Below are positions 25,272 to 41,273 of a stretch of 64,000 bases of DNA, piece after piece (positions within the stretch are counted from its first letter, which is position 1; the number at the start of each line of letters is the position of its first letter). A program made the translations under genes and the position numbers. Location: positions 1-64,000 of the forward strand of contig JANQQD010000255.1 in NCBI GenBank assembly GCA_028285185.1. The letters run 5' to 3'. The stretch comes from Anaerolineae bacterium. GTDB lineage: Bacteria; Pseudomonadota; Alphaproteobacteria; DSM-16000; Inquilinaceae. The notes under the pieces are model-generated. The model was not told where the DNA came from, made no database searches, and saw only the letters and a list, made by a program, of their open reading frames with translations.

Positions 25272-25615
25272 GCCGAAGCTTTCGGTGCGGAGACGATCGC
25301 GCCACTAAGTGCCCCCGCCGTCAAGTCGGAGCTCGACAAGGTTTTAGAGAGTCCCGCATTTCAAAACGCAGCACGATCTTCTCTTATCCTCGAAAGTTCG
25401 CACCAGCGGCAACAATTGCCTACGGTGGTTGATCCGGACACGGACCTGCTTGTCGATCCTAACGTTGAGTTGAGAGTTCTGCTCAGCAACGCTGCAGGGA
25501 TCGAGTACGGACTGATGGTTCAGTACCTCTATGCAGCCTATGCGGCCACAGAGGAGCTTACCGCGGCGTCCGGACCCGTCATTCCAGGGCACGACCCGCT
25601 AGTGCTGCGGCGCTA
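25272..25615 (+). pseudogene. Fragment of a VioB/RebD-like ferritin-domain gene
   Basis: An open frame with no in-frame ATG or plausible start after the stop at 25269-25271. It encodes about 115 residues including AAGIEYGLMVQYLYAAYAA. This closely resembles LAGIEHALMVEYLYAYYSI in the ferritin-like domain of the 690-residue protein at 31264-33336. The frame then runs into the antisense of the neighbouring beta-propeller gene, so similarity stops near 25615. It is truncated at both ends and probably non-functional. It looks like debris from an earlier copy or rearrangement of this gene family. Confidence 0.7.
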
Positions 25616-26863
25616 TCAGGCCCCCGGCGCGGCAGCGGGCGATATCGCCACAAACCCCGATGACGCACATGACACCACGTGCGGGACGGCAGGGCTCCCG
25701 AACTCCGTAATGGCCAGTTCCCAAGTATTGGCGGGCAGGTTGGTGGGATTCTCGGTGACCACACCAGTCTCGTAGTTGACCTGCACGAGTGAAGTTCCAA
25801 ATGGCGTCCCGCCGTGTTCAGGCAAGCCGGTAGCAATGAAACAGGTGTCGTCAACGCCCTTAACCGCAATCGCTCCGAAATAGGCATGGCCGCCCGGTAG
25901 GGCGATCGATCGCTCGATCGATGGCGCGGCACCATCGACGCGCACCACACGCAAGGTGTTAACATCGGCGTCCACCAGGAGCAGACGGGACTGATCCGGG
26001 GTGATAGCGATGCCATCAATGAAGGTGAATTCCGGATTTGTGATGTTGGTTCGCGTGAACGCGGGATCGTCAAGGTCGAACACCGCACATCCCGGGACAG
26101 GGTAGTTATTTGATAAAGTCATGAACGCGCGATTGCCGATGCCTGGAACGTTGGCGCAACGCACAGAGCGCGCACACGGGCCACCCGGGCCGGCGCCCGC
26201 ACCGTCGAAACCGTCAATCTCCGCTGCGAGGACTCTGTGGTCGGCGGCCTTGAAGATCGTCACCGTGCCCTGGTTGTAGTTGGCGATCACTCCGGTTTCC
26301 TCGTCCGCCGAGAAGCCGATCTCCTCGGGTAGCCGGCCGCAGTCGATCCACGCAATCGTCTTCAGGTAGTCGCCCGAATCTGGGTCGATATCGACAACGG
26401 CGACGAAGAGCCCATTCCAATCAGGGTTGCGCACCTCGGTCAGGAAGGATGCCGGAACATACAGCCTCTTGTACTTGTGATTGATGCCACCGCGCGCGAA
26501 CGGACTGACTTTCGGCAGGGTCGGCAGGTCGTTGGGAAAGGGTGTGGCCGGGTTTGGATGAATCATGACCTGAAAGGTCTCGTCGACCCGTTCGGTGAGG
26601 GTGTTGACCACATTGCCGATGCCGGAAGAATTGACGCTAAAAATCCGCGCGCCGTCAGCCGAAACCTTGCACATCCGCTGGGTTCCAGAGACCGGCACAA
26701 TGACGGTCGACGGTTTGGCGGGAATAACGCTGGACGACGCGGCGAAGGATTGCGGCAACTCAGGCGCCGAGTGATAGGCGGTCGGATAGCCAGCCCGGAC
26801 CTCGACCGGCGGGTAATCTGGGCCGCGAGGATCGCGCATCTGGATGGTGCTTTGATCAGACAT
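25616..26863 (-). CDS. Beta-propeller-like protein of unknown function
   Basis: A 415-residue protein with repeated beta-rich blocks of the YncE/NHL/lactonase type, for example ARIFSVNSSGIGNVV, TGVIANYNQGTVTIFKAA and SRLLLVDADVNTLRVVRVDG. There is no signal peptide. The ATG at 26863 has a strong GGAGGGA upstream. The C-terminus ends exactly where the ferritin-like fragment on the other strand breaks off, so the last few residues may have been altered by that junction. It is likely a partner or accessory in the redox block. I cannot assign a reaction. Confidence 0.65.
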   Translation of the reverse strand: MSDQSTIQMRDPRGPDYPPVEVRAGYPTAYHSAPELPQSFAASSSVIPAKPSTVIVPVSGTQRMCKVSADGARIFSVNSSGIGNVVNTLTERVDETFQVMIHPNPATPFPNDLPTLPKVSPFARGGINHKYKRLYVPASFLTEVRNPDWNGLFVAVVDIDPDSGDYLKTIAWIDCGRLPEEIGFSADEETGVIANYNQGTVTIFKAADHRVLAAEIDGFDGAGAGPGGPCARSVRCANVPGIGNRAFMTLSNNYPVPGCAVFDLDDPAFTRTNITNPEFTFIDGIAITPDQSRLLLVDADVNTLRVVRVDGAAPSIERSIALPGGHAYFGAIAVKGVDDTCFIATGLPEHGGTPFGTSLVQVNYETGVVTENPTNLPANTWELAITEFGSPAVPHVVSCASSGFVAISPAAAPGA

Positions 26864-27032: not shown

Positions 27033-27527
27033 TCAATCTCTTTTGAGCGTAACTTTCATGCCTTGCTTATGCTGTGTGCACCACAGCATAAGCGATCCTT
27101 CAAAGTTGTCTTTGACCTCTATTCTGGTCATCTCGACCGGATCCCCAGTAACCCCTGGGAGAATAGCTCCAAACTTTGAATCACCATCACCTAATTCGAC
27201 GACGATCTGTGTATTATTCTCGCCATCTCCAAGTTTTCTAATCTTCGCAGGATTCTCCGTGTCGGTTTCACCTATACCGTGTTGAATAAAATGCGCTTGG
27301 CGAAACACGATGATATCTCCGGGTTCCACGGAAACTTCAACGTGTTGCCCCGCATCGTCAGGCTGACCGTTGGCGTCGACCTGGGTACAGCGATCGCATT
27401 CAGCTTCCCACTTTGAGAACCCGGTAGCGTCAACCAATATTTCTTCAGCCAAAAGCGGCGTCGAGGCAGAGGCCGCCGAAACAAAGCCAAGCAAAACGGC
27501 AGCCAGCATACTGGGACAAACTTTCAT
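27033..27527 (-). CDS. Secreted cupredoxin-like copper protein
   Basis: A 164-residue protein with a signal peptide (residues 1 to about 28, ending near TPLLAEE). Its C-terminal segment LMLWCTQHKQGMKV is a type 1 copper loop with Cys150, His153 and Met157. The upstream histidine ligand is His83 or His79 in QAHFIQHGIG. It should carry single electrons in the periplasm. The start has GGAGGGG upstream. It lies 74 bases downstream of the multicopper oxidase on the same strand, so the two probably work as donor and acceptor. Confidence 0.82.
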   Translation of the reverse strand: MKVCPSMLAAVLLGFVSAASASTPLLAEEILVDATGFSKWEAECDRCTQVDANGQPDDAGQHVEVSVEPGDIIVFRQAHFIQHGIGETDTENPAKIRKLGDGENNTQIVVELGDGDSKFGAILPGVTGDPVEMTRIEVKDNFEGSLMLWCTQHKQGMKVTLKRD

Positions 27528-27601
27528 CAGAACCCCTCCATTGATTTTGCGGTAGTTTTAAACCGCCGCGCTACGAGCTCAGTTATGATTCGATGCTGGT
27601 T

Positions 27602-30016
27602 TCATAAGCCCTGGTCTTTTGGATCCCACACTTCTATGGGCGCCATCAGACCGCTGTCTTCATGCTTGAGAATATGGCAGTGGTAAACGAAGCGACCCAC
27701 CTGTGCATTGTCGACAAAGCTCATCATTACGTAGACAGGGCTACTTACTTCCTCGCGACCTGGAGGTACTGTTACGCTGAATGGTGGCATTGGGATCGTA
27801 TCGTGCCACTCAACTATCGAATTGATTGTTTCGCCTTCGGCAAACTCTGCCCTGCCAAGATTTGAAACTGATCTGCGTTGAGACGATTCAGGTTCATAAA
27901 ACTTATAGTCTGGCCCATCGCAATTGGTAACGCCATCACAGACGCTCGATACCGGAGGGGGGACAATGCCGTGACGGTTAAGATCATCGATGGTCGCCAA
28001 ACGAAACTTCATCTGGTGGATATGAAAATTATGCAAATCGGCGGTGGGGTTAGAAAGTTCCCATAGTTGTGGGCTCGCGTCCGCACTTTTGTCCAGCCGT
28101 ATACAAGTATGCAGCAGGTCAGAATCCCCCCCGTCCCATTTAATAGAATGATCGTCGTTGAGATAGGCCTCGAAAGGCGCATTAATTGTCAAAGGATCTC
28201 CATTTTCGTCTTTAACGACAGATCCATTCCTCATGATAGAAGTGACGATCTTCCATTCAGCCATAATTTTGGGATCATCATTCTTTGTAAATTCAACTCT
28301 TCTATACTCACCGTTGCGCAGGTCGCGCATGCAGCCGGGCGGAAGAGGCCGACTAACTCTATCTGCGCTGTCCGCCGGCAACAAACCAGCAACGACCGGT
28401 TCAGGTTCAGCGATTGATGCATTCAACGCAATCAAGACCGGGTCTCTTTTAGTCTCTTTGAAGGTGATACGCGCCAGCTGAATTTCCGGCCACCCATCCG
28501 ACTCCGGGTTAATACTAATCCATTCATCCCCTGGAGCCCCAATGCGCTGCGGAGGGATTGATCCAGTAAGCAGTTTTTTCGTTCGCAGGACAAATGCGGT
28601 GTCTTTGGCTGGATCGATCTCCCGCCGGTCGATATAGATCTCAACACGTGAGGCCGGCATGAGAAGCAAGTCAGGAACTCGATAAGAAGGTACGGAAATC
28701 TGCTCTCCGCCGTCTGCGGCGGGCTGGGGTTTAGCAGGGACAACCCCATCGACGCTCAGGATCGTCATCTTCTTGCGGACGAATTCACCATTGGCTGGAT
28801 CCGAAGCTTCCTCGTCATAGAGTTCCAGCCAGTAGGCGAAATTGGGGCTTAAGTTGCCCAGTCTCAGCAAGACCCCGGTCTTGGTTTCGTCCACTTCGAT
28901 TGTCGGGAATTTCTGGCCATTGATCGTGAAAAGCCAGAGCTTGTCTGGATCGGCCGCGCTTTGATCTCCGTTCAGGTCAGGCTGGCAAAACCCCTTGCGC
29001 AATCCTGTATTGCGGGTATCGAACGTGACCCCGTCCTGACCCACGACGCCGCAGACGCGACCCTGCCCGAAGTTTTGGCCATCGGGATCGGGAGCCCAGC
29101 CGCCTTCATCATTTCGTTTGAGCGATATATCGCGCAGGAGCGCATACTTCACGAGAGTGTTTCTGCGAAGTTCCGCTGTTTTTTCTTCGCATTCAACGAA
29201 ACTTAGTTCTTCGCAATCTGCCCTCAGGTTCGCATCTCGGCGTCCCACCGAGAGCAGCCCCGCCATGCCGCCCATCACCTGGTTCGAAGAAATCCCGTGA
29301 AGGTGGGAATGATACCAGTTCAGCCCTGGGGGATGGGAGATTCTTCCCGCACCTTCCAGAACCGCCGCATTGAGCTCCTCAAATCCCGGGATCGGCACGG
29401 TGAACGTGTGCTCTTGCTGCCTTTCCAGACAGCTGTAGATATTGTCGCCGGTGCCCCAGCGCGCTGAATCAGGCGGGCCTCCATGTAGGTCTTCGATTTC
29501 GCAATGTCCGGGACGAGCAGAAGTCGCGTTGCACGTGGTGACAATCCCGCCGTGGAAGTAGTGCAAATTGGTCGGATTGGAAGCCAGCGGAGGCGTTGGA
29601 TGAACCTCGTCAGGCTCGCAATGATGCGGGTGTTTGGGCTCGACGAGTGGTTTGTCCAGCGCGTTGGTCAAAGTAACCTCGACCGTATCACCTGCCCGGG
29701 CTTCGACGACGGGCGGCAGGTAGGTCCCATAATTCTCCGTCTTTATTGAATGGCCACCAATAGTTATTTCTTTGGTTTGAGCCTTCAGATTGATTTTTAC
29801 AATCTTGCGCTCTTCATCATTATTGTCCCTGCCGCTATTTGCGACCTCACAACCAAATGGGTTGTTATTAGGTATTGGCTCAAAAGAGGAGCAAATTGGC
29901 GGATCCTTAAACTCAATTATACCCGCTTGCGGTAACAAATCTTGCGCATCGCTTGCGCTCACCGTGAAGCTTGCGACCAATATCCCTGCACATACGAAGT
30001 TCGAGAATCTATCCAT
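27602..30016 (-). CDS. Large secreted multicopper oxidase
   Basis: An 804-residue multicopper oxidase with a signal peptide (MDRFSNFVCAGILVASFTV, then SASDAQ). All four copper motifs are present: LHYFHGG (about 151-157), NWYHSHLHG (about 234-241), HNFHIHQMKF and YHCHILKHEDSGLM, with the type 1 ligands Cys780, His785 and Met791. It couples one-electron oxidation of a substrate to four-electron reduction of oxygen. It is longer than common laccases (about 500 residues), with extra cysteine-rich and loop insertions, more like bilirubin-oxidase or phenoxazinone-synthase relatives. The start at 30016 is chosen for its signal peptide and a GTGAGG upstream; 30094 would add 26 unrelated residues. Confidence 0.92.
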   Translation of the reverse strand: MDRFSNFVCAGILVASFTVSASDAQDLLPQAGIIEFKDPPICSSFEPIPNNNPFGCEVANSGRDNNDEERKIVKINLKAQTKEITIGGHSIKTENYGTYLPPVVEARAGDTVEVTLTNALDKPLVEPKHPHHCEPDEVHPTPPLASNPTNLHYFHGGIVTTCNATSARPGHCEIEDLHGGPPDSARWGTGDNIYSCLERQQEHTFTVPIPGFEELNAAVLEGAGRISHPPGLNWYHSHLHGISSNQVMGGMAGLLSVGRRDANLRADCEELSFVECEEKTAELRRNTLVKYALLRDISLKRNDEGGWAPDPDGQNFGQGRVCGVVGQDGVTFDTRNTGLRKGFCQPDLNGDQSAADPDKLWLFTINGQKFPTIEVDETKTGVLLRLGNLSPNFAYWLELYDEEASDPANGEFVRKKMTILSVDGVVPAKPQPAADGGEQISVPSYRVPDLLLMPASRVEIYIDRREIDPAKDTAFVLRTKKLLTGSIPPQRIGAPGDEWISINPESDGWPEIQLARITFKETKRDPVLIALNASIAEPEPVVAGLLPADSADRVSRPLPPGCMRDLRNGEYRRVEFTKNDDPKIMAEWKIVTSIMRNGSVVKDENGDPLTINAPFEAYLNDDHSIKWDGGDSDLLHTCIRLDKSADASPQLWELSNPTADLHNFHIHQMKFRLATIDDLNRHGIVPPPVSSVCDGVTNCDGPDYKFYEPESSQRRSVSNLGRAEFAEGETINSIVEWHDTIPMPPFSVTVPPGREEVSSPVYVMMSFVDNAQVGRFVYHCHILKHEDSGLMAPIEVWDPKDQGL

Positions 30017-30187
30017 AAACCTCACCCCCGTTTGTATTCGAGTGCTGCGCCCAAGGGGTAATGACTGCCGAGCAAAAGGCAGAGCTCTGCTCAACTTTTC
30101 CTAGTATATGCTAACGCCGTTGGCTCGCGATCTCAACAAGCAGTGTTTTGCAAGGATGAGACTATGGCGCTTGGCGCATCGCCCGGA

Positions 30188-31267
30188 TCAGGCGTCCGCC
30201 AGGATCGGCCCCCTTATCCCCTCAAAGTGCATCCGTAAGGCTGGCCGCTCGGTCGTGCGCCGCGGGTCTATCTGGGAGAGGGCTTGCCGCATCTCGTGAA
30301 TTTCGCCCGACCAGGCATCGGGCACCTGGATCGAACCGTAGTATCGCAGACAATGGGTCAGATGCGACGAGAACGCAAAGTCGTATCGGTTAGCAACATG
30401 GCCGAGAATGGCCGCCGCGCTGCCGCCCTCGGCCAGAGCGTTGAGCGCGCCGACCGCGAGACACACAGACCGGAGCCCTTGGCCCGTGCCATCGCCCGAG
30501 ATCGGATCGAAGCTCACTGCCCGATCGCCGGCCGGAAGCGCTGCCGCGCTTGCCGGAGGCGGCCCAAGGCGCGGCGCGATGGCGGTGTGATGCGGCGGCT
30601 CGGTTTCCAGCGATCCAAGCAATGGCGCGAGATGTGCAGACAGCGTACCGCCTGGCGCGTGCCGAAGCCGCTTGGCCAAGCGGGAAAGATCGAGGCGCGC
30701 CTCCGGGGTCGCAAGCTGAACCGTCATACGGTCGCAGCTTGTGGGCAAAAGGAACATCCAGAACCCGTCGCCCGCAAGCGTTTCGCTCTGGTGTGACAGC
30801 CGCGGTTCAAGCGGCAGCGCTGGCCAGACCGCCATAGTGCGCTTTCCGGCCGTGATCTGACAGGCCTCGGGCAAAGCGGGACCGCGGGCATCGATCAGGT
30901 AGGTACCCGTGTCGCTGGGCACGTCTGCAATGATCTCGACCCCGCTGAGGCATGTCTCGAGCCCAGCGGCGAGCTCGGCAGCGTCGAGGCTGAGAGCCGC
31001 GATCTCAATAACATCGGCCGCGGGACCCGACCACGCGACACGGCGCTGGGACAGCCTATGCGTCGGGACGAATTCTTGCACCGGCTTGCCCCAAATGTCA
31101 GCGAACATCGCCTCGGTCTCAGCCGGCAAGGCAATGGCGCGGCTTTGCCTTGCGCAGGATGCCACCAACCGCACTGACCAGCCGCCATCGGCTAACAGCT
31201 TGGCGGCGGTTAGCCCGGCCGGGCCCGCGCCCAGCACGGTGATATCGCGAGGGCGGCTCTGGCTCAA
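30188..31267 (-). CDS. FAD-dependent monooxygenase, LodB/QhpG-like
   Basis: A 359-residue flavoprotein. The FAD-binding fold is ITVLGAGPAGLTAAKLLA at the N-terminus and the second FAD motif is GDRAVSFDPISGDGTGQGL. This pattern matches the LodB/QhpG and tryptophan-halogenase-like group. LodB and QhpG are required to build CTQ in LodA and in quinohemoprotein amine dehydrogenase, where QhpG hydroxylates the precursor tryptophan. The start overlaps the stop of the LodA-C/ferritin gene by four bases (ATGA). It is the last of four overlapping genes, so a role in maturing the product of that operon is the simplest reading. Confidence 0.82.
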   Translation of the reverse strand: MSQSRPRDITVLGAGPAGLTAAKLLADGGWSVRLVASCARQSRAIALPAETEAMFADIWGKPVQEFVPTHRLSQRRVAWSGPAADVIEIAALSLDAAELAAGLETCLSGVEIIADVPSDTGTYLIDARGPALPEACQITAGKRTMAVWPALPLEPRLSHQSETLAGDGFWMFLLPTSCDRMTVQLATPEARLDLSRLAKRLRHAPGGTLSAHLAPLLGSLETEPPHHTAIAPRLGPPPASAAALPAGDRAVSFDPISGDGTGQGLRSVCLAVGALNALAEGGSAAAILGHVANRYDFAFSSHLTHCLRYYGSIQVPDAWSGEIHEMRQALSQIDPRRTTERPALRMHFEGIRGPILADA

Positions 31268-33336
31268 ACGCCGCCGCCCATAACCTCGAGAAACGCCCGG
31301 CGGATGCTCGCCAGAGCGTCGCTTGAGCGCTCGGCCCGCGCGCGCAGCTCGGCATTGCCCGAAGCTAGCGCCTCGGTATTAAGCGTATCGAGCGGCTGGG
31401 TTGCGTTGGCCATTACTGCGGCCAGTCCGCCAGCCGCTGCGTCAGGCGCCGGCGCCCGGGCCACCTCAATACCTGGGCCTGTCGCGGGGCTTGGCCCGGC
31501 GGTGAAAATCCCCAGATTCACATCGCCCGCCAAGGTCGGCGGGGTGAAGAGCGGCGCGCCGCCGGCCGCGATGAGCGCGCGGATCTCGATATCCATGCTG
31601 TCGACCATTGCGATCCGGGTTGCTTCCAGAAGCCGCCCATGCTCGCTATCTCCGCGCCCGAAAACCACGAGAAGCAGGTTCAGGATCACCTCATAACTGC
31701 GGTCGACGCGCAGCTCGAACGCTTTGCCGGCGCTTGTCACGGCAAGCGGCGCAGGGTTTGATGCGGTTCGCAGATAGCTTTCATCGGGCGGCTCAGGCAA
31801 CAGCTGGCGGACACGCTGGAAACGGTGGAAATGGTCGTAACCTTCATCAATGATCAACTTGATCAGATGCAGCACGCGGTCTTTGATCGCATCGCTGATC
31901 TCGCCGCTTTTCTCGATGCTAAGGTAAAGCCGCGTATACATCCCGTCGACAGTGTCCGAGGCCACATCCGGGTCCACATCCTTGCTGCTGCGTTCGACAG
32001 TGATGAACCAATCGATCTGGTCGCGGGTCGCGGCGGTAAGCGCGAATGTATGAGGCAGGAAGCGGTTATTGCCGTCTTTGTCTTGGGTCTTGGCCGCTCG
32101 TGCCATCACCGGTGTCTCACCTAAAAGCACAAGGATTTCGTTCACCCAGCGGAAGTGGCGCATCTCGTCGATTGCGACGCCGAGGATAGTGCTGGCGGCT
32201 TCGTAAAGGCGAATCGCGGCGGTCTCATCCTGCGGCGGCGGCGTGGCGGGCGCGTTGATCGAGTAATAGGCGTAGAGATATTCGACCATCAGCGCGTGCT
32301 CGATCCCGGCAAGATAGGTCAACCGGTCGATGATGGTCGGGCGGTCGGGGAAAAGCTCGCTGTCGGGAAGGGTTTCCGGGCTACGCTTGGTGAACCGGTC
32401 GGTTTCACGGTCGTCGATCACGACGGGCAGGATTTCCCAGCCGTTGATCAGCTCCGCATGGTTCATCTGGCGCGGCACCCGCTCGGAAGGCGGCTCGGAC
32501 GTGGTCGCGGGATGTCCGCCTCGCCAAAGCCCCTGCCGGACCACGGGCGGATGGGTCGGCGGCTCGGGCGCAATCTCGCCGCTGCGCACCCGCTGGAAAT
32601 TGTAGATCTGCGGGCCCTCGGGGTCGACGGCGACCATATCGGGCTTGTTCGAGGCCCAGTACCAGCAGCCGCAATCGGTGAAATCGTATTGCCAGGGCGA
32701 ACACAGCGAACGCGTCAGATCACCGGGCTCATACATGTCGGGATCGATTACGCCATCTATCAAATAGGCGCTGCGGGTGCCGAAAATCACCGAAATCGCC
32801 GCCTGGCCCGGTACCGGGATCGAGCTGCTTTGCCCGGTGTTCAGTGCCGCAATGATTGCGCTCTGCTGCGCCATCGGGATCGGGGTGATATCGGGTCCAA
32901 GGACGATAGCGACGGGTCCCGGCTCGAACTCGCGGATGATCTGCCAAATGGCGCTGCCGGGAGGATTTTCGGCGCTGGCCGACATACGTATGGTCCACTG
33001 CAGCGTCGGACCGGCGTTTTCGGGCGCCTCGAGATCGGGAATGATACCACCCACCGCCAGCACCCGCAGCCCTGCGGTGAAATCCGCCTCGGCGATCGGA
33101 AAGCCGCGCGTAGGGTCATAGTCGCGCAACCAGCCGCCGGTGCCGGCATGCAGCTCGATCAAAAGCCCGTCGATAAATCGTTTTTCCAGGTTCCGGTGAT
33201 CGAATTCGAGGCCGGGAAAGGTGTTTTCGACCGTCGCGTCGGGCCGGGTGGTCACCGGATTGCCACGCACCGCCACATAGGAATGCGCGGTCTGGTTCAA
33301 CGGCATGATTTTTTGCGATTTGAGCGCGTCAGACAT
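31264..33336 (-). CDS. LodA C-terminal-like domain with CTQ-type motif fused to a ferritin-like domain
   Basis: A 690-residue two-part protein. Residues about 35-260 resemble the C-terminal half of LodA: FPGLEFDHRNL matches FHPGIEVTWPFR of the full-length homologue at 38323-40245. The cofactor region CSPWQYDFTDCGCWYWASN matches its PWQTDEASC and FWGARVPN. Asp218, Cys222 and Trp227 are candidate CTQ residues. Residues about 330-590 form a VioB/RebD-like ferritin domain with acidic and His ligands in AGIEHALMVEYLYAYY and IDEMRHF. No signal peptide is seen. The ATG at 33336 overlaps the radical SAM gene by eight bases and has AAGGGAAA upstream; 33666 would add residues antisense-like to that gene. 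The missing N-terminal LodA half is encoded at 34663-36150. Confidence 0.75.
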   Translation of the reverse strand: MSDALKSQKIMPLNQTAHSYVAVRGNPVTTRPDATVENTFPGLEFDHRNLEKRFIDGLLIELHAGTGGWLRDYDPTRGFPIAEADFTAGLRVLAVGGIIPDLEAPENAGPTLQWTIRMSASAENPPGSAIWQIIREFEPGPVAIVLGPDITPIPMAQQSAIIAALNTGQSSSIPVPGQAAISVIFGTRSAYLIDGVIDPDMYEPGDLTRSLCSPWQYDFTDCGCWYWASNKPDMVAVDPEGPQIYNFQRVRSGEIAPEPPTHPPVVRQGLWRGGHPATTSEPPSERVPRQMNHAELINGWEILPVVIDDRETDRFTKRSPETLPDSELFPDRPTIIDRLTYLAGIEHALMVEYLYAYYSINAPATPPPQDETAAIRLYEAASTILGVAIDEMRHFRWVNEILVLLGETPVMARAAKTQDKDGNNRFLPHTFALTAATRDQIDWFITVERSSKDVDPDVASDTVDGMYTRLYLSIEKSGEISDAIKDRVLHLIKLIIDEGYDHFHRFQRVRQLLPEPPDESYLRTASNPAPLAVTSAGKAFELRVDRSYEVILNLLLVVFGRGDSEHGRLLEATRIAMVDSMDIEIRALIAAGGAPLFTPPTLAGDVNLGIFTAGPSPATGPGIEVARAPAPDAAAGGLAAVMANATQPLDTLNTEALASGNAELRARAERSSDALASIRRAFLEVMGGGV

Positions 33337-34666
33337 CGGGCTTTCCCTTTGAATTGGAGGGGCGTCGGGTAAAGAAATCGGGTCGGGCATGTTGCAACTC
33401 GGCATAGGCCGAGAGACAGAAGTCGAGCCAGCCACGGATGTAGTCGCAGCCGATCCGGCCACGATTTTTGACTTCGTGATAGCAGCCTCCGCCGCAGAGA
33501 TAGCGCGCCCAGCAGCTCTTGCAGGGCTCTTGCCGGTCGACATGGGCGGCAGCGAGATGTGCGGTGCGGCGGCCATAGTCGGCGCCGTTTGCAAGATCGC
33601 CAAAGGCGAAATCCGGGTCGTCAACCAGCCGATGACAGCCATAAAGCGCGCCCTCCGCGCTGACACTCAGATAGCCCGCGCCGGCCCCGCAGGGATAAGG
33701 CATATGCGCGCCGCGATGGATTTGCTGCATTGCGGTTTGAAAATTGGAGAACGGCAGGACGACACCTTTCAACGCAGCCGCTTTGGCGCGGCGGCCGCAA
33801 ACGATCATCTCGTCGAGGAAGCGGGCGAGTTCGTCCGGGCAATAGGCCGGCGCCCCGGGCGGTGCAGCAATGACCGGGCCAAAGCCCACCTCGTCGAGAT
33901 CGAGGCTCAGGAGGTGATCAAGCATCTCGGGCAAGGCGCCAGTAAAGGGTGTCACCGTTGCGCGCGCCGACAGATGCAGGGGCCGGGTGGCCGCGAGCCG
34001 CGCAAGCCCCGTGATGGCGGCGTCATAGGCGCTGCCCCGCCCGTTCCGCCGCCGCCGCTGGCCGTCATTGCTGGCGCGCGTTCCGTCGAGCGAGACAGCC
34101 ACCGCGAAAGGATAGTTGGCAAGCAGCGCTGCATCCTCATCTCCGATCAGCGTCGCATTGGTGGTGATGGAGAAGCGCACCCGATGCCCGGCCCGGTCGG
34201 CGGCACGCGCCGCATAGCGGGTGGCGGCGTGGACGAGGCGCTGGTTGATGAAAGGCTCGCCACCCATGAACCCCACTAGCAGATCGCTCTCAGGCGGCGC
34301 ATCGGCGATTAGCCGGTCGATCGCGTCCTCAGCCACACGTTCAGGCATGAGCCGAGCCGCACCGCCGAAGCGGCCTTCATCGGCATAGCAGTAGCTACAG
34401 GACAGATTGCAGGCCTGCGCCACGTTGAGCGAAAGCGATTTAACCGGCGGCGGCGCGGCCGCTTCGGAGCCGATGTAGCGCCGGGTCCCGCCGATCAGAC
34501 CGGCTAGCGCTTCGGGAACTCGGCCTGCATCGATGTCAGTAGCGACGGCCTGTGCGGTGTCACGGTCGAGATCGAAGATGCGGCTGCCGTCAGCGAGATA
34601 GAGGTGGTCGCCGCGACCGCTGGAAAACACCCGCGCCTCGGCTTGAATGTCGAACCGGGCGTTCAT
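33329..34666 (-). CDS. Radical SAM/SPASM peptide maturase
   Basis: A 445-residue radical SAM enzyme. The SAM-cluster motif is ACNLSCSYCYADEG (Cys86, Cys90, Cys93), followed by the GGEPF SAM-binding motif. The C-terminal SPASM region binds auxiliary clusters (YPCGAGAGYLSVSAEGALYG and later CKSCWARYLCGGGCYHE). Such enzymes modify peptides or proteins, for example QhpD, which makes thioether crosslinks in the CTQ subunit of quinohemoprotein amine dehydrogenase, and anaerobic sulfatase maturases. It overlaps both neighbours (ATGA with the LodA-N gene, eight bases with the LodA-C/ferritin gene), so it almost certainly acts on one of them. No short precursor-peptide gene is seen nearby. Confidence 0.9.
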   Translation of the reverse strand: MNARFDIQAEARVFSSGRGDHLYLADGSRIFDLDRDTAQAVATDIDAGRVPEALAGLIGGTRRYIGSEAAAPPPVKSLSLNVAQACNLSCSYCYADEGRFGGAARLMPERVAEDAIDRLIADAPPESDLLVGFMGGEPFINQRLVHAATRYAARAADRAGHRVRFSITTNATLIGDEDAALLANYPFAVAVSLDGTRASNDGQRRRRNGRGSAYDAAITGLARLAATRPLHLSARATVTPFTGALPEMLDHLLSLDLDEVGFGPVIAAPPGAPAYCPDELARFLDEMIVCGRRAKAAALKGVVLPFSNFQTAMQQIHRGAHMPYPCGAGAGYLSVSAEGALYGCHRLVDDPDFAFGDLANGADYGRRTAHLAAAHVDRQEPCKSCWARYLCGGGCYHEVKNRGRIGCDYIRGWLDFCLSAYAELQHARPDFFTRRPSNSKGKPDV

Positions 34667-36150
34667 CCGATGTGGCCGCTTGTGCGCAATCCTTCGACCC
34701 AGCGCTGCAGCATTTCGTATTGCCGGCGCGTGATGTTCATGGCCCGCCCGTGCGAGCCGCGCATCAGCGGCGGCATGCGGCGGTCGAAGCGCTGAAACTC
34801 ATCGAGCGGCTTGCGGATCCAGGTGTCGATCAGCTGAGGATCCTCGCGCAGCCGGTCGCGCAGATATTCCAGCGCAGTGTAGCGGCGATGCTTGCGGCGG
34901 CCGCGGTACGAGACCGGAAGGGCATCGGATCGGTGGGCGGTGGGGGCGATCTCGTCGCGGGTTGCCCAAATCGTGTTGAGCGCCAACTCGTCGCGGTCCC
35001 CGGTCGCGCGCGGCAGGCGAACCTCTTCGTCTTGCGTTGCCGGATGCAACCGATCCAACTCGGTGTCCTTGTTCATCAGATCCGAGGTTTCGAGCGCCCG
35101 TTCGAACAGATCGCGCACCAGATCTTCCAACTCGTCGAGATCGGCCTCTCGGATGCCAGCCCGGTCGACCCGGTCGGCGAGCCCATCCTGCAGAGATGTC
35201 AGATGCCGTCGGTCGGGCGCGAAATCGGGCGGCCCTACGGCGACGCGGGCAACAGCCGTAAGGCCGCCGACGCTGCACTCGATGATCCCGTCGGTGACAT
35301 CGTCGACGAGGCCGAGACTGACATTCGTACTTCTCAAATCGCCGAAGAACGCGTGGATGCCACCGGGGGTCTTTCGCGTGTCTCCCGGGATGAAGGGTGG
35401 GCCGACTCGTTGCCCTAGCACGTAGTTTGGCCAAGCGGCCCGGGGATTGAGAATCAGCCGGCCCGGCAAATCGAACCCAGCCCATTCGCCGGGTCTGGGC
35501 TCTGCCGCGATGCGCTGCAAGAGATCGGTCGGCCCATAGACCAGACCTTTCGGCGGATAGAATCGGAGCCGGATTTCGGGCAATTCGTCGTTCGGCTGCG
35601 CTACCTGCACCTCGCCGACCGGGATCGACTCACCATGCGGCAGAAGGCGGGAGGATTCGTCACCCTCGGTTGCGGTCAAGGCAAGCCGGACGCGGGTTGT
35701 GGTGCCGGCCGGTATTTGCTCTTCACACGTAAGCCGGTCTCCATCGCTCAGCGTGAATTCATAGGCTTTGAGATTGGCCAGCCGGATCTGCCAGCGGACC
35801 TGGGACAGGTCGAGGCCCGAGTCTTCGAGCACGAGTTTCGTGATCGGCCCGCTGCTGGTCGTGCCGTTGATGGTCCAGCGGCCATGCAGTTCGAAATAGG
35901 GGCAGACGGGGCGGAAATGCCAGGTTCCGTTGCCGTCCTCTTCCTTGAAGATCACCTCATCCGCAGGTTCCACAATACTGGGATTGCCGTTCGCGTCCAG
36001 CTCCACCGACGGGGCGGCGCGCAAGGTAGTCTTACCGGTGCCACCAGGGCCATCATCGGTGGGGCCCCAGGTGAAGTTCGGGCATGGAGTTTCGCTGGAG
36101 CCCAGTCGGGCTATGGCAATCGGCGGCGTCAGCCAGATGGCGTCAATCAC
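34663..36150 (-). CDS. Separate LodA N-terminal-like domain protein
   Basis: A 495-residue protein matching only the N-terminal half of LodA-type oxidases. Pairs with the full-length homologue at 38323-40245 are IWLTPPIAIARLGSS with VAIHPAIGVARVGNA, WQIRLANLKAYEF with WRVEVANLKAGWY, DDVTDGIIECSV with DDICDGPVRARV, and VGPPDFAP with VAPPNYGP. At the end, MPPLMRGS then RRQYEMLQRWVEGL matches LPPIYGDA then GLQYEHLQNWADGT. It stops there, just before the cofactor half, which is found in the next-but-one gene. The GTG at 36150 follows GGGGGGAG; the GTG at 36204 would put that Shine-Dalgarno sequence inside the gene. There is no signal peptide. Confidence 0.8.
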   Translation of the reverse strand: MIDAIWLTPPIAIARLGSSETPCPNFTWGPTDDGPGGTGKTTLRAAPSVELDANGNPSIVEPADEVIFKEEDGNGTWHFRPVCPYFELHGRWTINGTTSSGPITKLVLEDSGLDLSQVRWQIRLANLKAYEFTLSDGDRLTCEEQIPAGTTTRVRLALTATEGDESSRLLPHGESIPVGEVQVAQPNDELPEIRLRFYPPKGLVYGPTDLLQRIAAEPRPGEWAGFDLPGRLILNPRAAWPNYVLGQRVGPPFIPGDTRKTPGGIHAFFGDLRSTNVSLGLVDDVTDGIIECSVGGLTAVARVAVGPPDFAPDRRHLTSLQDGLADRVDRAGIREADLDELEDLVRDLFERALETSDLMNKDTELDRLHPATQDEEVRLPRATGDRDELALNTIWATRDEIAPTAHRSDALPVSYRGRRKHRRYTALEYLRDRLREDPQLIDTWIRKPLDEFQRFDRRMPPLMRGSHGRAMNITRRQYEMLQRWVEGLRTSGHIG

Positions 36151-36426
36151 TTGTTTTCTCCCCCCAAACAATGACTGCAACCAATACGTCGGGAAATGCG
36201 CCACAGCATATCGGTTTCGAAAGCCGAATTTCCTCTTTCACGGTCTTTGCTGACAAACCCGTCGACACATAACAGCCTTCCCGCTACGATTGTGCTCAAT
36301 ATAGCACAAACAACCAACAACGGCGAGGTGAAGACGCCCCCCCCTGCACTTAATGGACGGCGTGCATAGTCAGCGGCGCCATTGGCGTGCTTTGTTGGTT
36401 TGGTTGCATGATGGAAAGGGTCGCAT
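36151..36426. promoter_or_regulatory. Divergent promoter region between the two LodA-type operons
   Basis: 276 bases, locally lower in GC, between the split-LodA operon (leftwards) and the metzincin/LodA operon (rightwards). It must hold both promoters, suggesting joint control. A short inverted pair TTGTGC/GCACAA lies near 36290-36312 and could be an operator. No regulator gene is adjacent except the broken sigma factor at 44409-44903. Confidence 0.5.
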
Positions 36427-37683
36427 TTGGACTTCAACGGACTGACGCCAGCACCCCGCAGAAGACGGGTCTTTTCGGCAAGCTCGGGCGGGTCGGTTTC
36501 CATTCTTGATATCGAAGTGACGCAGGCGATCCAGAACCTGCGCCATGAAGTGCGACTGATCGCGGGCAAGAAAACCGTCGTTCGCGTCTATCTGAAGCCG
36601 AACGCCCTGCCGCGTAATATGCGGGTGCGCGGCGAGATTCTAATATCGCGCGGGACCACGGCACCGGCGCGCTTTGTGATGTCTAAAAACACGATTACGC
36701 TAAAAGGGTCCGGCAATCCGTCGCTCGGAACGCAGCGCCGGAACGCGGAGTTGAGCCTCAATTTCGAGTTGCCGGGTAGAGGCGTAGGGCCGCTTCTCAT
36801 TCAGCTCAACCGGGTCATGCCGGCGACCCGCGGCGACGATATCCCGATCAGCAATCCCGGCCAGACGCGACAGGTGGAATTCGTTTCGGCTCCGCCTTTG
36901 CGCATCCGCGTCCTGGGCCTGCGCTATGTCGATGACCGGCAGACACCGGCGCAGACGTTTGCGCCGGATGCACTCCATTTCGACTTTCTGAAGTCCTACC
37001 TGACGCGGACCTATCCCGTCCCGCGGCTCGAATGGTCGCAGATCGTGGTAAATGCCGGCCCTAATATCAATCCGCCGTTTCACAGCCCAGATTTCCCGCG
37101 TATCGACCCGATTTGGTCGGCGGTTGCGGGCCGAGTGATCGCGCGGCTGCAGCTTCTGCGCCAGGCGGATGTGAATAGCGGTCGCGACCCGCGGACGCAT
37201 TACTATGGGCTCGTCGCTGATGACAGCGGGTTCTTTCGCGGGCGCGCGTCGCGGGTAGCGACCCTCGCCGACCCTTCGGTGGTTGCCTTCGGCCCAACTG
37301 GCAATCCTTCGAATTATGCGAACTTTGCCTGGGACGAGGATTCCTCGTTCGGCGACTGGTACGGCGCGCATGAGCTGGCGCATACGCTGGGCTGCCGGCA
37401 TCCGGGATGCCAGAAGACGCCGACGAGCCAGCCGAGCCAGGGCCGCGACCCCCAATCGACCTATCCTTACGTGTTGGGGCGGCTTTCGGATGCGGCAGAG
37501 GATTGCATTGGCTTCGATACAGGTGACCCCGATCTGGGCATGCCTATGCGGGCTTATCCCCACGCGACCTCCAGCGATTTTATGACGTATTGCGATGACC
37601 AATGGGTGTCCCGGCACACCTATGACGAGCTGTTCGACCGGCTCGTTGAAGAGGATGAGAACTTTGCGCCGGAGAACATCTGA
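36427..37683 (+). CDS. Metzincin-type zinc metalloprotease
   Basis: A 418-residue protein with the extended zinc motif HELAHTLGCRH (His315, Glu316, His319, His325) and a Met-turn at FMTYCDD (Met386), which defines metzincins. The N-terminal half (about 25-160) is a beta-rich domain with no evident catalytic motif. There is no signal peptide. The start is a TTG at 36427 with GGAAAGGG upstream; this choice is moderately secure. It leads the operon with LodA, LodB-like flavoprotein and DyP peroxidase. In quinohemoprotein amine dehydrogenase maturation a protease (QhpE, of a different family) trims the CTQ subunit, so a processing role here is possible. Confidence 0.85.
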   Translation: MDFNGLTPAPRRRRVFSASSGGSVSILDIEVTQAIQNLRHEVRLIAGKKTVVRVYLKPNALPRNMRVRGEILISRGTTAPARFVMSKNTITLKGSGNPSLGTQRRNAELSLNFELPGRGVGPLLIQLNRVMPATRGDDIPISNPGQTRQVEFVSAPPLRIRVLGLRYVDDRQTPAQTFAPDALHFDFLKSYLTRTYPVPRLEWSQIVVNAGPNINPPFHSPDFPRIDPIWSAVAGRVIARLQLLRQADVNSGRDPRTHYYGLVADDSGFFRGRASRVATLADPSVVAFGPTGNPSNYANFAWDEDSSFGDWYGAHELAHTLGCRHPGCQKTPTSQPSQGRDPQSTYPYVLGRLSDAAEDCIGFDTGDPDLGMPMRAYPHATSSDFMTYCDDQWVSRHTYDELFDRLVEEDENFAPENI

Positions 37684-37701
37684 TTAGACGCGGGATCTCG
37701 G

Positions 37702-38295
37702 ATGAGCAATTGGATTCAAGTGGTTGGCGTCTTCGACTCACAAGCCAACACGGGTGAGATCCTGGGCGTACAACCGGCGCTCGCGCCCAAATCGGCCACC
37801 GGAGAGGCAAGCGAGATAACGCTGACCGCGTTGAGCGGCGCCGGCGAAGTGCTGGCCGAAGTGCCGGTAACGCCTGACTATGGCAGCTGCGACGACAATG
37901 CGGAGGTGGGCACGTTTCAGATCTATATCGATCTGCCCTCCGCCACGCGCGCCCTGAGCCTGCAGCATCAAGGCGTGCATCTTGCGCAATTCGTGCCGGA
38001 CGATCCCGCCGCCTCGGCAGCAGGCGAAAGCTTCGGTCTGTCACCGCAGGCCGACCACCGGGTGCGGCTTGAGGGAACATCCGGTAGCCCCTCGAATGCA
38101 ACCTATATCCTGCAGGCGCGACCCAAAGGCACGACAATCTGGGAAACGCTCGATATCGGGCTCGACAGGCCCGAGACCGCGACGGTCGATCTGAGGCAGT
38201 TTCCCGATGCCGAAGTTGTGGAAGTGCGAATTCTAAAATCATCGGGTTTCGAGACAGTCGAGCTCGACCGACAAACCTTCGATTTCAACGAGTAA
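37702..38295 (+). CDS. Hypothetical beta-rich protein
   Basis: A 197-residue acidic protein I do not recognise. It has alternating beta segments and no signal peptide, membrane helix or cysteine motif beyond one Cys in DYGSCDDN. It starts 18 bases after the metzincin and ends 27 bases before the LodA gene, in the same operon. It could be a binding or chaperone subunit for either neighbour. No function is assigned. Confidence 0.6.
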   Translation: MSNWIQVVGVFDSQANTGEILGVQPALAPKSATGEASEITLTALSGAGEVLAEVPVTPDYGSCDDNAEVGTFQIYIDLPSATRALSLQHQGVHLAQFVPDDPAASAAGESFGLSPQADHRVRLEGTSGSPSNATYILQARPKGTTIWETLDIGLDRPETATVDLRQFPDAEVVEVRILKSSGFETVELDRQTFDFNE

Positions 38296-38322
38296 TTTCC
38301 AGATCATCGAAATGGAGATGTC

Positions 38323-40245
38323 ATGGACGCTTCGCCGATTGTGTCTGTCGCCATTCATCCCGCCATCGGTGTTGCCCGGGTCGGCAACGCTCGAGAAGAA
38401 TGGTTTCTGGCCGCCGATCTTCGCGGCAGCGCGCCCGCTGATCCGGACGGCTATCGCGACGCAGACGGGCGGATTAAGCGCCAGGTTTCCAGGTTCCGGA
38501 TCTATGCCACCCATGCCTCGGGCGAGGTGCGCGAGCTGACTCTGGATGAGGCCGAGATCGAATGGCGGGTCGAGGTCGCCAATCTGAAAGCGGGCTGGTA
38601 CCAGTTCAATTACCCGCTCGATCTGCCGGTCGCGGGGATTGAAGCGCCAGAACGGCGGAACGCGGCCTTTACCGGCGGGGATCGCGGCAGGCTGGATATC
38701 AGGCCGAGCGAAAAGGCAATTTCGGGCCGGAACGAGGCCGGGGCGCCGTACCGGTTCGACGATGGCGAGTTCTTCGGCAAACGGGTCTATCTCGGAGAAC
38801 TGCGGACCGATTCGGCGGGACGGCTCCTGGTCTTCGGCGGCCGTGGCGCAAGCGCGCCGCTGACCCCCGGCACCGCGCCCCGGACGTTCGCCAATAACGA
38901 TGGCTGGCACGATGATATCTGCGATGGGCCGGTGCGGGCGCGGGTGCGGGTCGGAGGCGAAACCTTCGAAGCGGAGCCCGCACATGTCGTCGTCGCGCCG
39001 CCGAACTACGGGCCGGGCCTTTTCGGCGTGGTCACGATGGATGACGTGTTGCAGGATCTCTACGTCCGCGAAGGCTGGGTCGCCGCGCCCGAGGTTACCC
39101 GCTTCACGCGCGACATCTGGCCGGTCTTCGACCGGATTAGCGGGCATCAATGGGTGAATGACGGGTTCTTGCCGATCGTGGGCGTGGGTTCGCCACTCGA
39201 TGCGCGCAGCCCGGAGATCATCGCGAAGCTGCAGGAAGGCTCAAGCGCGAACGCCGGGTTTCGGGCTCAGGTGCATGCGCTCTTCCGGCAGCCCGGTGAC
39301 GAGCGGCCCGAAGCGCTGCCGCCCATTTATGGCGATGCGCTGAGTGACCGGCGGCCGGATGGGACACTTCTCGATCCGACCCGGCAGGAGTTGTTTCTGA
39401 CCGGCCTGCAATATGAGCATTTGCAGAATTGGGCGGACGGAACCTTCGAGGCCGATTGGCAGGGCATGCCGGAATTCCCGGATTTCGATGCGCTGCCGCC
39501 GAAGGCGCAGACCGAAGAGCTGGACCGGGCAGGCATGTATGAATGCCTCGGTGGGCCGTTTCATCCTGGCATCGAGGTCACCTGGCCGTTCCGGTTGGCG
39601 ATCATGTGGAAAGCGCCCTACCGGTTACGGGCGCTGCCCGAAGGCACCGCCGTCCGCCAGGATTACGGCGAGACGCTTTCGGTCGAAACCGCCCTGGCGG
39701 CTGACGGGCCGCATGGCGCTTCAGGCCCCGGTTCGCTGACCCGTTGGCTGGGTGTGCCCTGGCAGACAGATGAGGCATCGTGCAATTCAGGCCTGCTATA
39801 CAGCCCCGAGCTTTACCTTTCGAGCCCGAGCTTTTGGGGTGCGCGCGTGCCGAACCAGGTGTTGTCGCAAGAGGCATTTGCGCTTGCCAGCTCGGGCAGG
39901 TTGAGCCCCGAAGAGGCCGACAGGCATTTTGCCAAGCGGCATCTGTGGCTCCGCGATATCAATGGCAGAGGCTATTTTGAGCGGATCGACGCGATGGTGA
40001 CGCGCTGGTGGAAACTGGGCTTGGTAGCGGCCAAGACCCCGCCCGAAGGCTCGGACCTGCCCGATCCGACCTTTGTCGAAACCGGCCGCCAGCCATCGGC
40101 GACGGCAGATCCGTCGCTTGAACTGTTGCTGGCGGTGCTCGCGCTGGAGGACAGCGATGGCGCGGCGGAACTTGGGGCCGGACCGGGCGGGACGCCGCCG
40201 GAGGAGAGGCGCGGCTACAAGACCTTCTCGCGCGGCGAGATTTGA
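38323..40245 (+). CDS. LodA-like CTQ-dependent amino acid or amine oxidase
   Basis: A 640-residue full-length member of the LodA/GoxA family, quinoproteins that oxidise L-lysine, glycine or other amines, releasing aldehyde, ammonia and hydrogen peroxide. The N-terminal hallmark is AIHPAIGVARVGNA. The cofactor region is VPWQTDEASCNSG with Asp483 and Cys487, followed by SFWGARVPNQVL with Trp505. These match the Asp, Cys and Trp that form cysteine tryptophylquinone in LodA. The C-terminal helix region (HFAKRHLWLRDINGRGYFE) is also typical. There is no signal peptide, as in other LodA proteins. It overlaps the flavoprotein gene by one base (TGATG). The substrate cannot be predicted. Confidence 0.88.
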   Translation: MDASPIVSVAIHPAIGVARVGNAREEWFLAADLRGSAPADPDGYRDADGRIKRQVSRFRIYATHASGEVRELTLDEAEIEWRVEVANLKAGWYQFNYPLDLPVAGIEAPERRNAAFTGGDRGRLDIRPSEKAISGRNEAGAPYRFDDGEFFGKRVYLGELRTDSAGRLLVFGGRGASAPLTPGTAPRTFANNDGWHDDICDGPVRARVRVGGETFEAEPAHVVVAPPNYGPGLFGVVTMDDVLQDLYVREGWVAAPEVTRFTRDIWPVFDRISGHQWVNDGFLPIVGVGSPLDARSPEIIAKLQEGSSANAGFRAQVHALFRQPGDERPEALPPIYGDALSDRRPDGTLLDPTRQELFLTGLQYEHLQNWADGTFEADWQGMPEFPDFDALPPKAQTEELDRAGMYECLGGPFHPGIEVTWPFRLAIMWKAPYRLRALPEGTAVRQDYGETLSVETALAADGPHGASGPGSLTRWLGVPWQTDEASCNSGLLYSPELYLSSPSFWGARVPNQVLSQEAFALASSGRLSPEEADRHFAKRHLWLRDINGRGYFERIDAMVTRWWKLGLVAAKTPPEGSDLPDPTFVETGRQPSATADPSLELLLAVLALEDSDGAAELGAGPGGTPPEERRGYKTFSRGEI

Positions 40246-41273
40246 TGGAGACGCAAAAGCGGTTCGAGGTCTTGGTCGCAGGGCGAGGCCCTGCGGGCCT
40301 TGCGGCATCCATCGCATTGGCCGAGCGGGGCATCGAAGTGGTGAGCCTTGCGCCGGTCGGGGCGTCTCCGGCCTTGGCGCGTGCCGAGATGCTGTCCCTC
40401 GCAGTCGAGGCCATCCTGGCGCGGCTCGGGCTCGGCGACGTGCTGGCGCGAGCGGTGAGGCTTCGGGGCGTGGAGCGCCACTGGAACAGAGCGCGGCCCG
40501 AGCTGCAGGACGGCCTGTCGCCTGACGCCGCGGGCCCCGGGTGGAGCGTCGACCGTGCCGACCTGCAAGAGGCGCTGACGACGCGCGCCGCGGCGTTGGG
40601 CGTGACGGAGGCGCAGGGCCAAATTCGCGGCGTCGCCGGCCAACCTGGGCGTTGGCGTGTAACGCTCCCGAATGGCGGCAGTCTTGACGCACGATTCCTG
40701 GTCGATGCTACGGGCCGGCCCGCGGCACTGGCGCGCAGGCTGGGCGCGAAACTACGGTTCGGCCTGCCGCTTCTTGCCCGGGTCTGGACCGCAACGGCGC
40801 CGGCACCGTCACGATTGGTGGCCAAAGCCGAGCCGGACGGGTGGCGCTACACCCTACCCCATCCGGCGGGCGGCGCCTCGGTTGGCTGGCTGACTCGCCC
40901 CGGCCTGGTCCGCGACGCGCCGCCCAGCTTTGCCTCGACCCGTGCACAGGACGCGCGGAGCATGCAGCTCAGCCCGGTGGCCGGGCCCGGTTGGCTCGCT
41001 GCCGGAGATTCCGCCGCCGCCTTCGACCCGATCGCCTCACAGGGTCTCTTCAACGCGCTCTCCGGTGGTTTTTTTGCCGGCAATGCGGCGGCGGATGCGG
41101 TGCGGGGGGCTCCAGAAAACATCACGGTCTACCGGCTCCTGACAGAGCGCACTGCGGCGCGGACGCATCATCTGATCCCCAGCCAATATGCCGCCAGCGG
41201 ATACCGGACCTCCTTCTGGGCCGAGCGCGCGCAGCAAACAATTCTGAGCAAAGGAGTGACTTATGGACTTTAG
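40245..41273 (+). CDS. LodB-like FAD-dependent maturation protein
   Basis: A 342-residue flavoprotein. The FAD fold is FEVLVAGRGPAGLAASIALA, where the usual GxGxxG reads GRGPAG, and the second FAD motif is GDSAAAFDPIASQGLFNALS. LodB proteins are needed to form CTQ in their cognate LodA, usually from the adjacent gene, exactly as here: the start overlaps the LodA stop by one base and the gene ends 11 bases inside the next one. It is a distant paralogue of the flavoprotein at 30188-31267; each probably serves its own LodA-type partner. Confidence 0.87.
   Translation: METQKRFEVLVAGRGPAGLAASIALAERGIEVVSLAPVGASPALARAEMLSLAVEAILARLGLGDVLARAVRLRGVERHWNRARPELQDGLSPDAAGPGWSVDRADLQEALTTRAAALGVTEAQGQIRGVAGQPGRWRVTLPNGGSLDARFLVDATGRPAALARRLGAKLRFGLPLLARVWTATAPAPSRLVAKAEPDGWRYTLPHPAGGASVGWLTRPGLVRDAPPSFASTRAQDARSMQLSPVAGPGWLAAGDSAAAFDPIASQGLFNALSGGFFAGNAAADAVRGAPENITVYRLLTERTAARTHHLIPSQYAASGYRTSFWAERAQQTILSKGVTYGL

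Follow-up and report, generated by a model that had tools for sequence, protein, structure and literature searches.

A block of four overlapping or abutting genes on the minus strand (36204-30188) of the 64,000-nucleotide stretch of DNA analyzed here (the window) appears from its predicted proteins to encode a five-part system, which is composed of the N-terminal and the C-terminal half of a LodA-type protein, a radical SAM enzyme, a flavin monooxygenase, and a ferritin-like diiron domain. Our favored and, we think, probable reading is that of a split LodA-type enzyme with the protein-derived quinone CTQ (cysteine tryptophylquinone), in which the radical SAM enzyme would form thioethers, the flavoprotein would then install CTQ from C222 and W227, and the ferritin-like domain would hold a diiron site.

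Two routes to CTQ are known, one using a radical SAM enzyme together with a flavoprotein (quinohemoprotein amine dehydrogenase, QHNDH) and one using a flavoprotein without a radical SAM enzyme (LodA, the L-lysine epsilon-oxidase, and GoxA, a glycine oxidase). The family described here combines a LodA/GoxA protein with the maturation kit and the motif of QHNDH. Since a LodA/GoxA-like protein seemingly builds its quinone in the manner of QHNDH, the family may link both known cofactor routes.

Organization of the locus

The features of the locus are listed in Table 1. The genes of the LodA N-half and the radical SAM enzyme overlap by 4 bases. The motif-bearing fusion protein, numbered from the ATG at 33336, matches PF18417 at about residues 201 to 232 (20 bits, below the cut-off) and PF12902 at about residues 344 to 493 (52.7 bits). 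A GoxA-like gene with its GoxB-like partner (38323-41273) lies on the opposite strand, about 2 kb upstream of the minus-strand cluster.

Table 1. Features of the locus and of the recurring GoxA gene set (window positions unless a locus is named)
Feature	Coordinates	Strand	Details
LodA N-half gene	34663..36204	(-)	513 aa; PF17990 weak, below cut-off
QhpD-like radical SAM/SPASM enzyme	33329..34666	(-)	445 aa; TIGR03906 262 bits
LodA C-half + ferritin-like domain, motif-bearing fusion	31264..33336	(-)	690 aa from ATG 33336
QhpG/LodB-like flavin monooxygenase	30188..31267	(-)	359 aa; NF049967 QhpG 90.6 bits
Candidate CTQ motif C212-x5-D218-x3-C222-x-C224-xY-W227-x5-D233	32638..32703	(-)	homologue alignment
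Putative diiron ligand set, ferritin-like domain: E346, E391, H394, E448, E/D498, H502	31831..32301	(-)	
Canonical GoxA-like neighbour	38323-40245	opposite	640 aa
Metalloprotease-like/197-aa/GoxA set	36427-40245; L040:9514-13463; L011:13063-15586; L067:2-3320		

Relation to LodA and GoxA

The LodA_N and LodA_C Pfam scores of the window proteins lie under the curated cut-offs, but family profiles and a structural comparison do lead to LodA and GoxA. A profile of the N-half, built from 20 homologues, matches the GoxA structures with an E value of 7e-10 and LodA with 1e-7. For a single-chain relative, LodA and GoxA are the top structural matches (Foldseek E 1e-9, Z scores of 14 to 15 over 225 to 268 residues). 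The beta domain of the QHNDH alpha subunit was also considered as a relative of this model and was left unused, because its Z scores of 7.3 to 7.8 are at the same level as those of immunoglobulin folds.

The window system shares with LodA and GoxA the sequence of both halves, the D-x3-C and W-x-A-x-x-P signatures, and a flavoprotein partner, but it divides the chain between two genes, carries an extra ferritin-like domain, and includes a radical SAM enzyme. LodA and GoxA are single chains with a LodB-like partner (LodB or GoxB), function without a radical SAM enzyme, have no equivalents of C212 and C224, and place 15 to 65 residues between the Cys and the Trp. The single-chain relatives of the window system carry the radical SAM gene too. 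The position of the GoxA residue His583 is mostly Phe or Tyr in the homologues, and glycine oxidation is therefore not to be assumed.

The candidate CTQ site

Translation of 31267-33336 (minus strand) gives PWQYDFTDCGCWYWA, with P214 at 32697 and W227 at 32658-32656, which bears out the originally reported motif position and the numbering of Asp218, Cys222, Cys224, Trp225, and Trp227. The motif reads LC212-SPWQY-D218-FTD-C222-G-C224-WY-W227-ASNKP-D233. As originally proposed, D218, C222, and W227 align with D483, C487, and W505 of the neighboring GoxA-like protein, and the spacing between Cys and Trp is 5 in the fusion protein versus 18 in the neighbor. The alignment of C222 to LodA and GoxA follows the D-x3-C signature and that of W227 follows W-x-A-x-x-P; in LodA, D512 and C516 lie within EPGDLTKRMACPWQADFFNCT, and the Trp of the CTQ is residue 581 (PMC4417212). 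Among 18 canonical LodA/GoxA comparators of the same class, the Cys-Trp spacing ranges from 15 to 37, the position of C212 is occupied by Ala, Gly, or Ser, that of C224 is never Cys, and only one of the 18 has an Asp at the position of D233. Both AlphaFold models have a pLDDT below 50 in the motif, for which reason we do not argue from distances within it.

Conservation among homologues

We collected homologues in two ways. A tblastn search of plasmids, under query rules free of the motif, led to 15 fetched loci from Actinomycetota, Cyanobacteriota, and Pseudomonadota, in all of which the motif is intact and the radical SAM gene and the LodA N-half adjoin the C-half. An alignment-based scan of 84,980 species genomes yielded 199 relatives, 80 of which were fetched, giving together with the plasmid loci a conservation set of 95 proteins from 10 phyla. 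The scan used two peptide patterns; 57 of the 80 loci fit both, while 16 fit the first alone and 7 the second alone, so that the loci caught by one pattern serve as a test of the other; D233 is in neither pattern.

C212, D218, C222, C224, Y226, W227, and D233 are invariant in all 95 proteins, and the Cys-Trp spacing is 5 throughout. The conservation of the motif exceeds chance. It supports C222 and W227 as the CTQ candidates of the original prediction, and a search for homologues that keep the radical SAM gene and have lost either residue returned no case. The further suggestion of additional crosslinks through Cys224 or Trp225 is compatible with the invariance of C224 and is unlikely for W225, which we discarded as the crosslinked Trp because its position varies and is mostly Tyr or Phe (Y 50, F 36, W 3, M 2, H 2, G 1, T 1).

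The family is widespread in bacteria and apparently undescribed so far. A literature search with thin coverage of subscription journals found no publication in which a radical SAM enzyme is paired with LodA-like proteins. With the family, some 200 new candidates become available as enzyme substrates in which Cys-Asp thioethers may form.

Maturation enzymes

The best NCBIfam match of the window radical SAM enzyme is QhpD (TIGR03906), with 262 bits against an equivalog cut-off of 453. The same model ranks first for all 11 radical SAM proteins compared (the window protein and ten others, 262 to 352 bits, under the cut-off), followed by PapB, and all 10 cluster-binding Cys residues of QhpD are kept, these being the CX3CX2C motif and seven SPASM Cys. 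QhpD and PapB both form thioethers between Cys and Asp or Glu (PMC11002830). PapB, the freyrasin ranthipeptide maturase, belongs to a related radical SAM family forming Cys-Asp thioethers, but its substrate is a short peptide product and not an enzyme.

The best match of the window flavoprotein is QhpG (NF049967; 90.6 bits, cut-off 240). The QhpG model is the top hit for all 11 flavoproteins, and the homologues in 7 of 10 scanned loci score above the cut-off. QhpG/LodB-type flavoproteins, whose known task is the hydroxylation of Trp, are encoded at nearly every locus. This presence, together with an invariant W227 that aligns with the CTQ Trp of LodA and GoxA, makes it very unlikely that the C-x-C and Asp residues form a copper or iron site in a LodA-like protein without a quinone, even though such residues are able to bind metals and the nearby genes include a copper oxidase and encode a diiron domain.

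The radical SAM gene adjoins the C-half in all loci with room for it, with the exception of L071, L086, and L093. These three loci come from two genomes, both of which encode the same radical SAM enzyme elsewhere (45 to 47% identity), and they were consequently dismissed as counterexamples. Among 72,556 plasmids, the 19 records with a LodC-like protein are exactly those with a close radical SAM match (19/19). The sole additional close match is from an Azospirillum plasmid and does not count as an exception, its gene being truncated before an IS3 element; the next-ranked matches are QhpD proteins. The Azospirillum copy (L135:5457-8963) ends inside the radical SAM gene beside the IS3 element and represents a decayed operon. 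The QhpD-like enzymes of L132 and L134 were rejected as family members, as a profile search finds no LodA-like neighbor, and look like a separate peptide maturase. In the radical SAM tree, the enzymes of the system and QhpD are separate, but the system's enzymes form a single clade with low support (52) and the outgroup branches are very long, so we claim no order of descent from it.

The invariant C212 and C224, with the invariant Asp partners D218 and D233 at a spacing like that in QhpC, suggest a specific job for the radical SAM enzyme. In the proposed sequence of events, the QhpD-like enzyme would first make the thioethers C212-D218 and C224-D233 (equivalent to C27-D33 and C41-D49 of QhpC), both of which would hold the short loop. 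The QhpG-like flavoprotein would next hydroxylate W227 twice, whereupon C222 would close on W227 to give CTQ, and the mature cofactor would oxidize a primary amine.

SPASM enzymes of other families form C-C and C-N crosslinks, and Y226 is conserved just as strictly as the Cys positions. The radical SAM enzyme might accordingly introduce a different bond, such as a carbon crosslink of Trp or Tyr or a Cys-Trp bond, with CTQ still formed from C222 and W227 and with another role for C212 and C224. We regard this as unlikely, considering that the nearest families are both thioether formers, that the models of cyclophane makers score far lower on the window enzyme, and that the motif has two Cys and two Asp residues to spare, placed at QhpC-like distances.

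Resemblance to the QHNDH gamma subunit

We compared the motif with the Paracoccus QhpC gamma subunit (PDB ID 1JJU), which reads LC27QPMEAD33LYGC37ADPC41WW43PAQVAD49 and has the motif C27-x5-D33-x3-C37-x3-C41-x-W43-x5-D49. The distances in QhpC and in the C-half are 6 and 6 for C-D, 4 and 4 for D-C, 6 and 6 for W-D, and 6 and 5 for Cys-Trp, and several other QhpC sequences end in PD, as does the motif of the C-half. The thioether Cys41-Asp49 has been described, as have the functions of QhpD and QhpG (PMC7876137), and the short spacing of Cys37 and Trp43, which the original prediction had given, is correct with a value of 6 (PDB 1JJU sequence; PMC7876137). The shared features comprise the C-x5-D-x3-C...W-x5-D spacing, the short Cys-Trp distance, the QhpD-type radical SAM enzyme, and the QhpG-type flavoprotein. 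The remaining QhpC thioethers in 1JJU are C27-D33 and C7-E16. The third pair, C7-E16, has no counterpart in the C-half, and the CTQ motif of the window system resides in a LodA-type protein, whereas that of QHNDH resides in a 9-kDa subunit. In this genome, there was no match to the diheme alpha subunit (TIGR03908) and none to the 9-kDa gamma subunit (PF08992), the latter negative being weaker because the PF08992 control was also silent.

The profile-profile alignment selects precisely the motif stretch of QhpC, a match of about 25 residues in which C212, D218, C222, and D233 fall on C27, D33, C37, and D49 (P = 0.0065, hhalign probability only 5.8%). In a shuffle test, the scores of two QhpC sequences were reached by none of 1,954 and none of 1,842 shuffles, and a third sequence beat all but 4 of 1,916. 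The resemblance supports common descent and does not prove it. Convergence, with related pairs of radical SAM enzyme and flavoprotein acquired independently, is a serious possibility to which we give somewhat less than an even chance; it concerns descent and is compatible with the proposed chemistry, its premise being that CTQ sites with a short loop require thioether clamps. QhpC is only 9 kDa, the common stretch is short, and the hhalign probability is low, all of which fit convergence, but residues outside the chemistry also match (L26/L211, P29/P214, and W-[PA]-A-x-x-P-D), and the maturation enzymes common to both systems, as well as the shuffle test, speak against it.

With regard to the site itself, the original prediction of a distinct cofactor geometry needs refining, and the link between short spacing and the radical SAM gene is supported. 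The best reading of the sequences is that the geometry is not new, being QHNDH-like and housed in a LodA-type protein. A possible rule is that thioether clamps, and with them a radical SAM enzyme, are required wherever the Cys-Trp loop is short. More tentatively, and with a probability that we put below even, the system might represent a third class of CTQ enzyme, a LodA-type protein with a QHNDH-type, thioether-clamped CTQ and a diiron ferritin-like domain as redox partner replacing the hemes, in which case LodA and QHNDH would have CTQ sites of common ancestry.

Ferritin-like domain and gene arrangements

The C-terminal part of the fusion matches the ferritin-like fold of the PF12902 protein CC_0557 (PDB ID 3HL1; Foldseek E 1.4e-5). 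It has this fold in common with PF12902 proteins, a domain also found in VioB, but differs from them in being fused to the LodA C-half. Across 29 fused homologues, the residues E346, E391-x2-H394, E448, and E/D498-x3-H502 vary little or not at all, with E346, E391, H394, and E448 kept in 89 to 91 of 91 ferritin-like domains, and the set corresponds to the predicted ligands of a diiron site.

The gene arrangements vary. With Fer for the ferritin-like domain, N and C for the LodA halves, and FMO for the flavin monooxygenase, the domain is separate or fused to the N-half in the orders Fer, N-C, rSAM, FMO; Fer, N, C, rSAM, FMO; and Fer-N, C, rSAM, FMO. It is fused to the C-half in the orders N, rSAM, C-Fer, FMO and N, C-Fer, rSAM, FMO, and N-C-Fer also occurs as one reading frame. 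The single-chain forms show that both halves belong to one functional unit, and since the ferritin-like domain can be joined to the N-half or to the C-half, it presumably acts in the same complex. Ferritin-like genes have also been described alongside LodA-like genes of fungi, with no mention of a radical SAM gene (PMC4417212), which makes it more likely that the domain supports the oxidase than that it takes part in thioether formation. Our guess is that it probably partners the quinone, either taking electrons or removing O2 or peroxide.

Neighboring genes

In Nitrospira, Microvirga, and Rhizobiales, the cluster with the radical SAM gene is accompanied by a canonical GoxA together with a metalloprotease-like gene and a gene of 197 aa (Table 1), so that CTQ enzymes of two kinds recur side by side. 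In several genomes, a 515-aa protein without a family is paired with a DyP-type peroxidase beside the system (window 41263-44354, L010:11702-14807, and L093:7508-10497), and the peroxidase may use the peroxide of the oxidase. The window cluster has a multicopper oxidase gene and a small gene of cupredoxin type as neighbors (27033-30094), and a multicopper oxidase and a tyrosinase lie nearby in L016; both enzymes have been described near other LodA-like genes (PMC4417212). A short frame at 25416-25775 of the window has a weak likeness to the ferritin-like part of VioB and overlaps a longer frame on the opposite strand; it is perhaps the remnant of a separate ferritin-like gene. In public plasmid records, the flavoprotein is labelled as tryptophan 7-halogenase (L014:9220-10608, L015:9269-10789, L019:9218-10669, and L020:8577-10061), and the LodA halves in the same records are labelled as hypothetical proteins.
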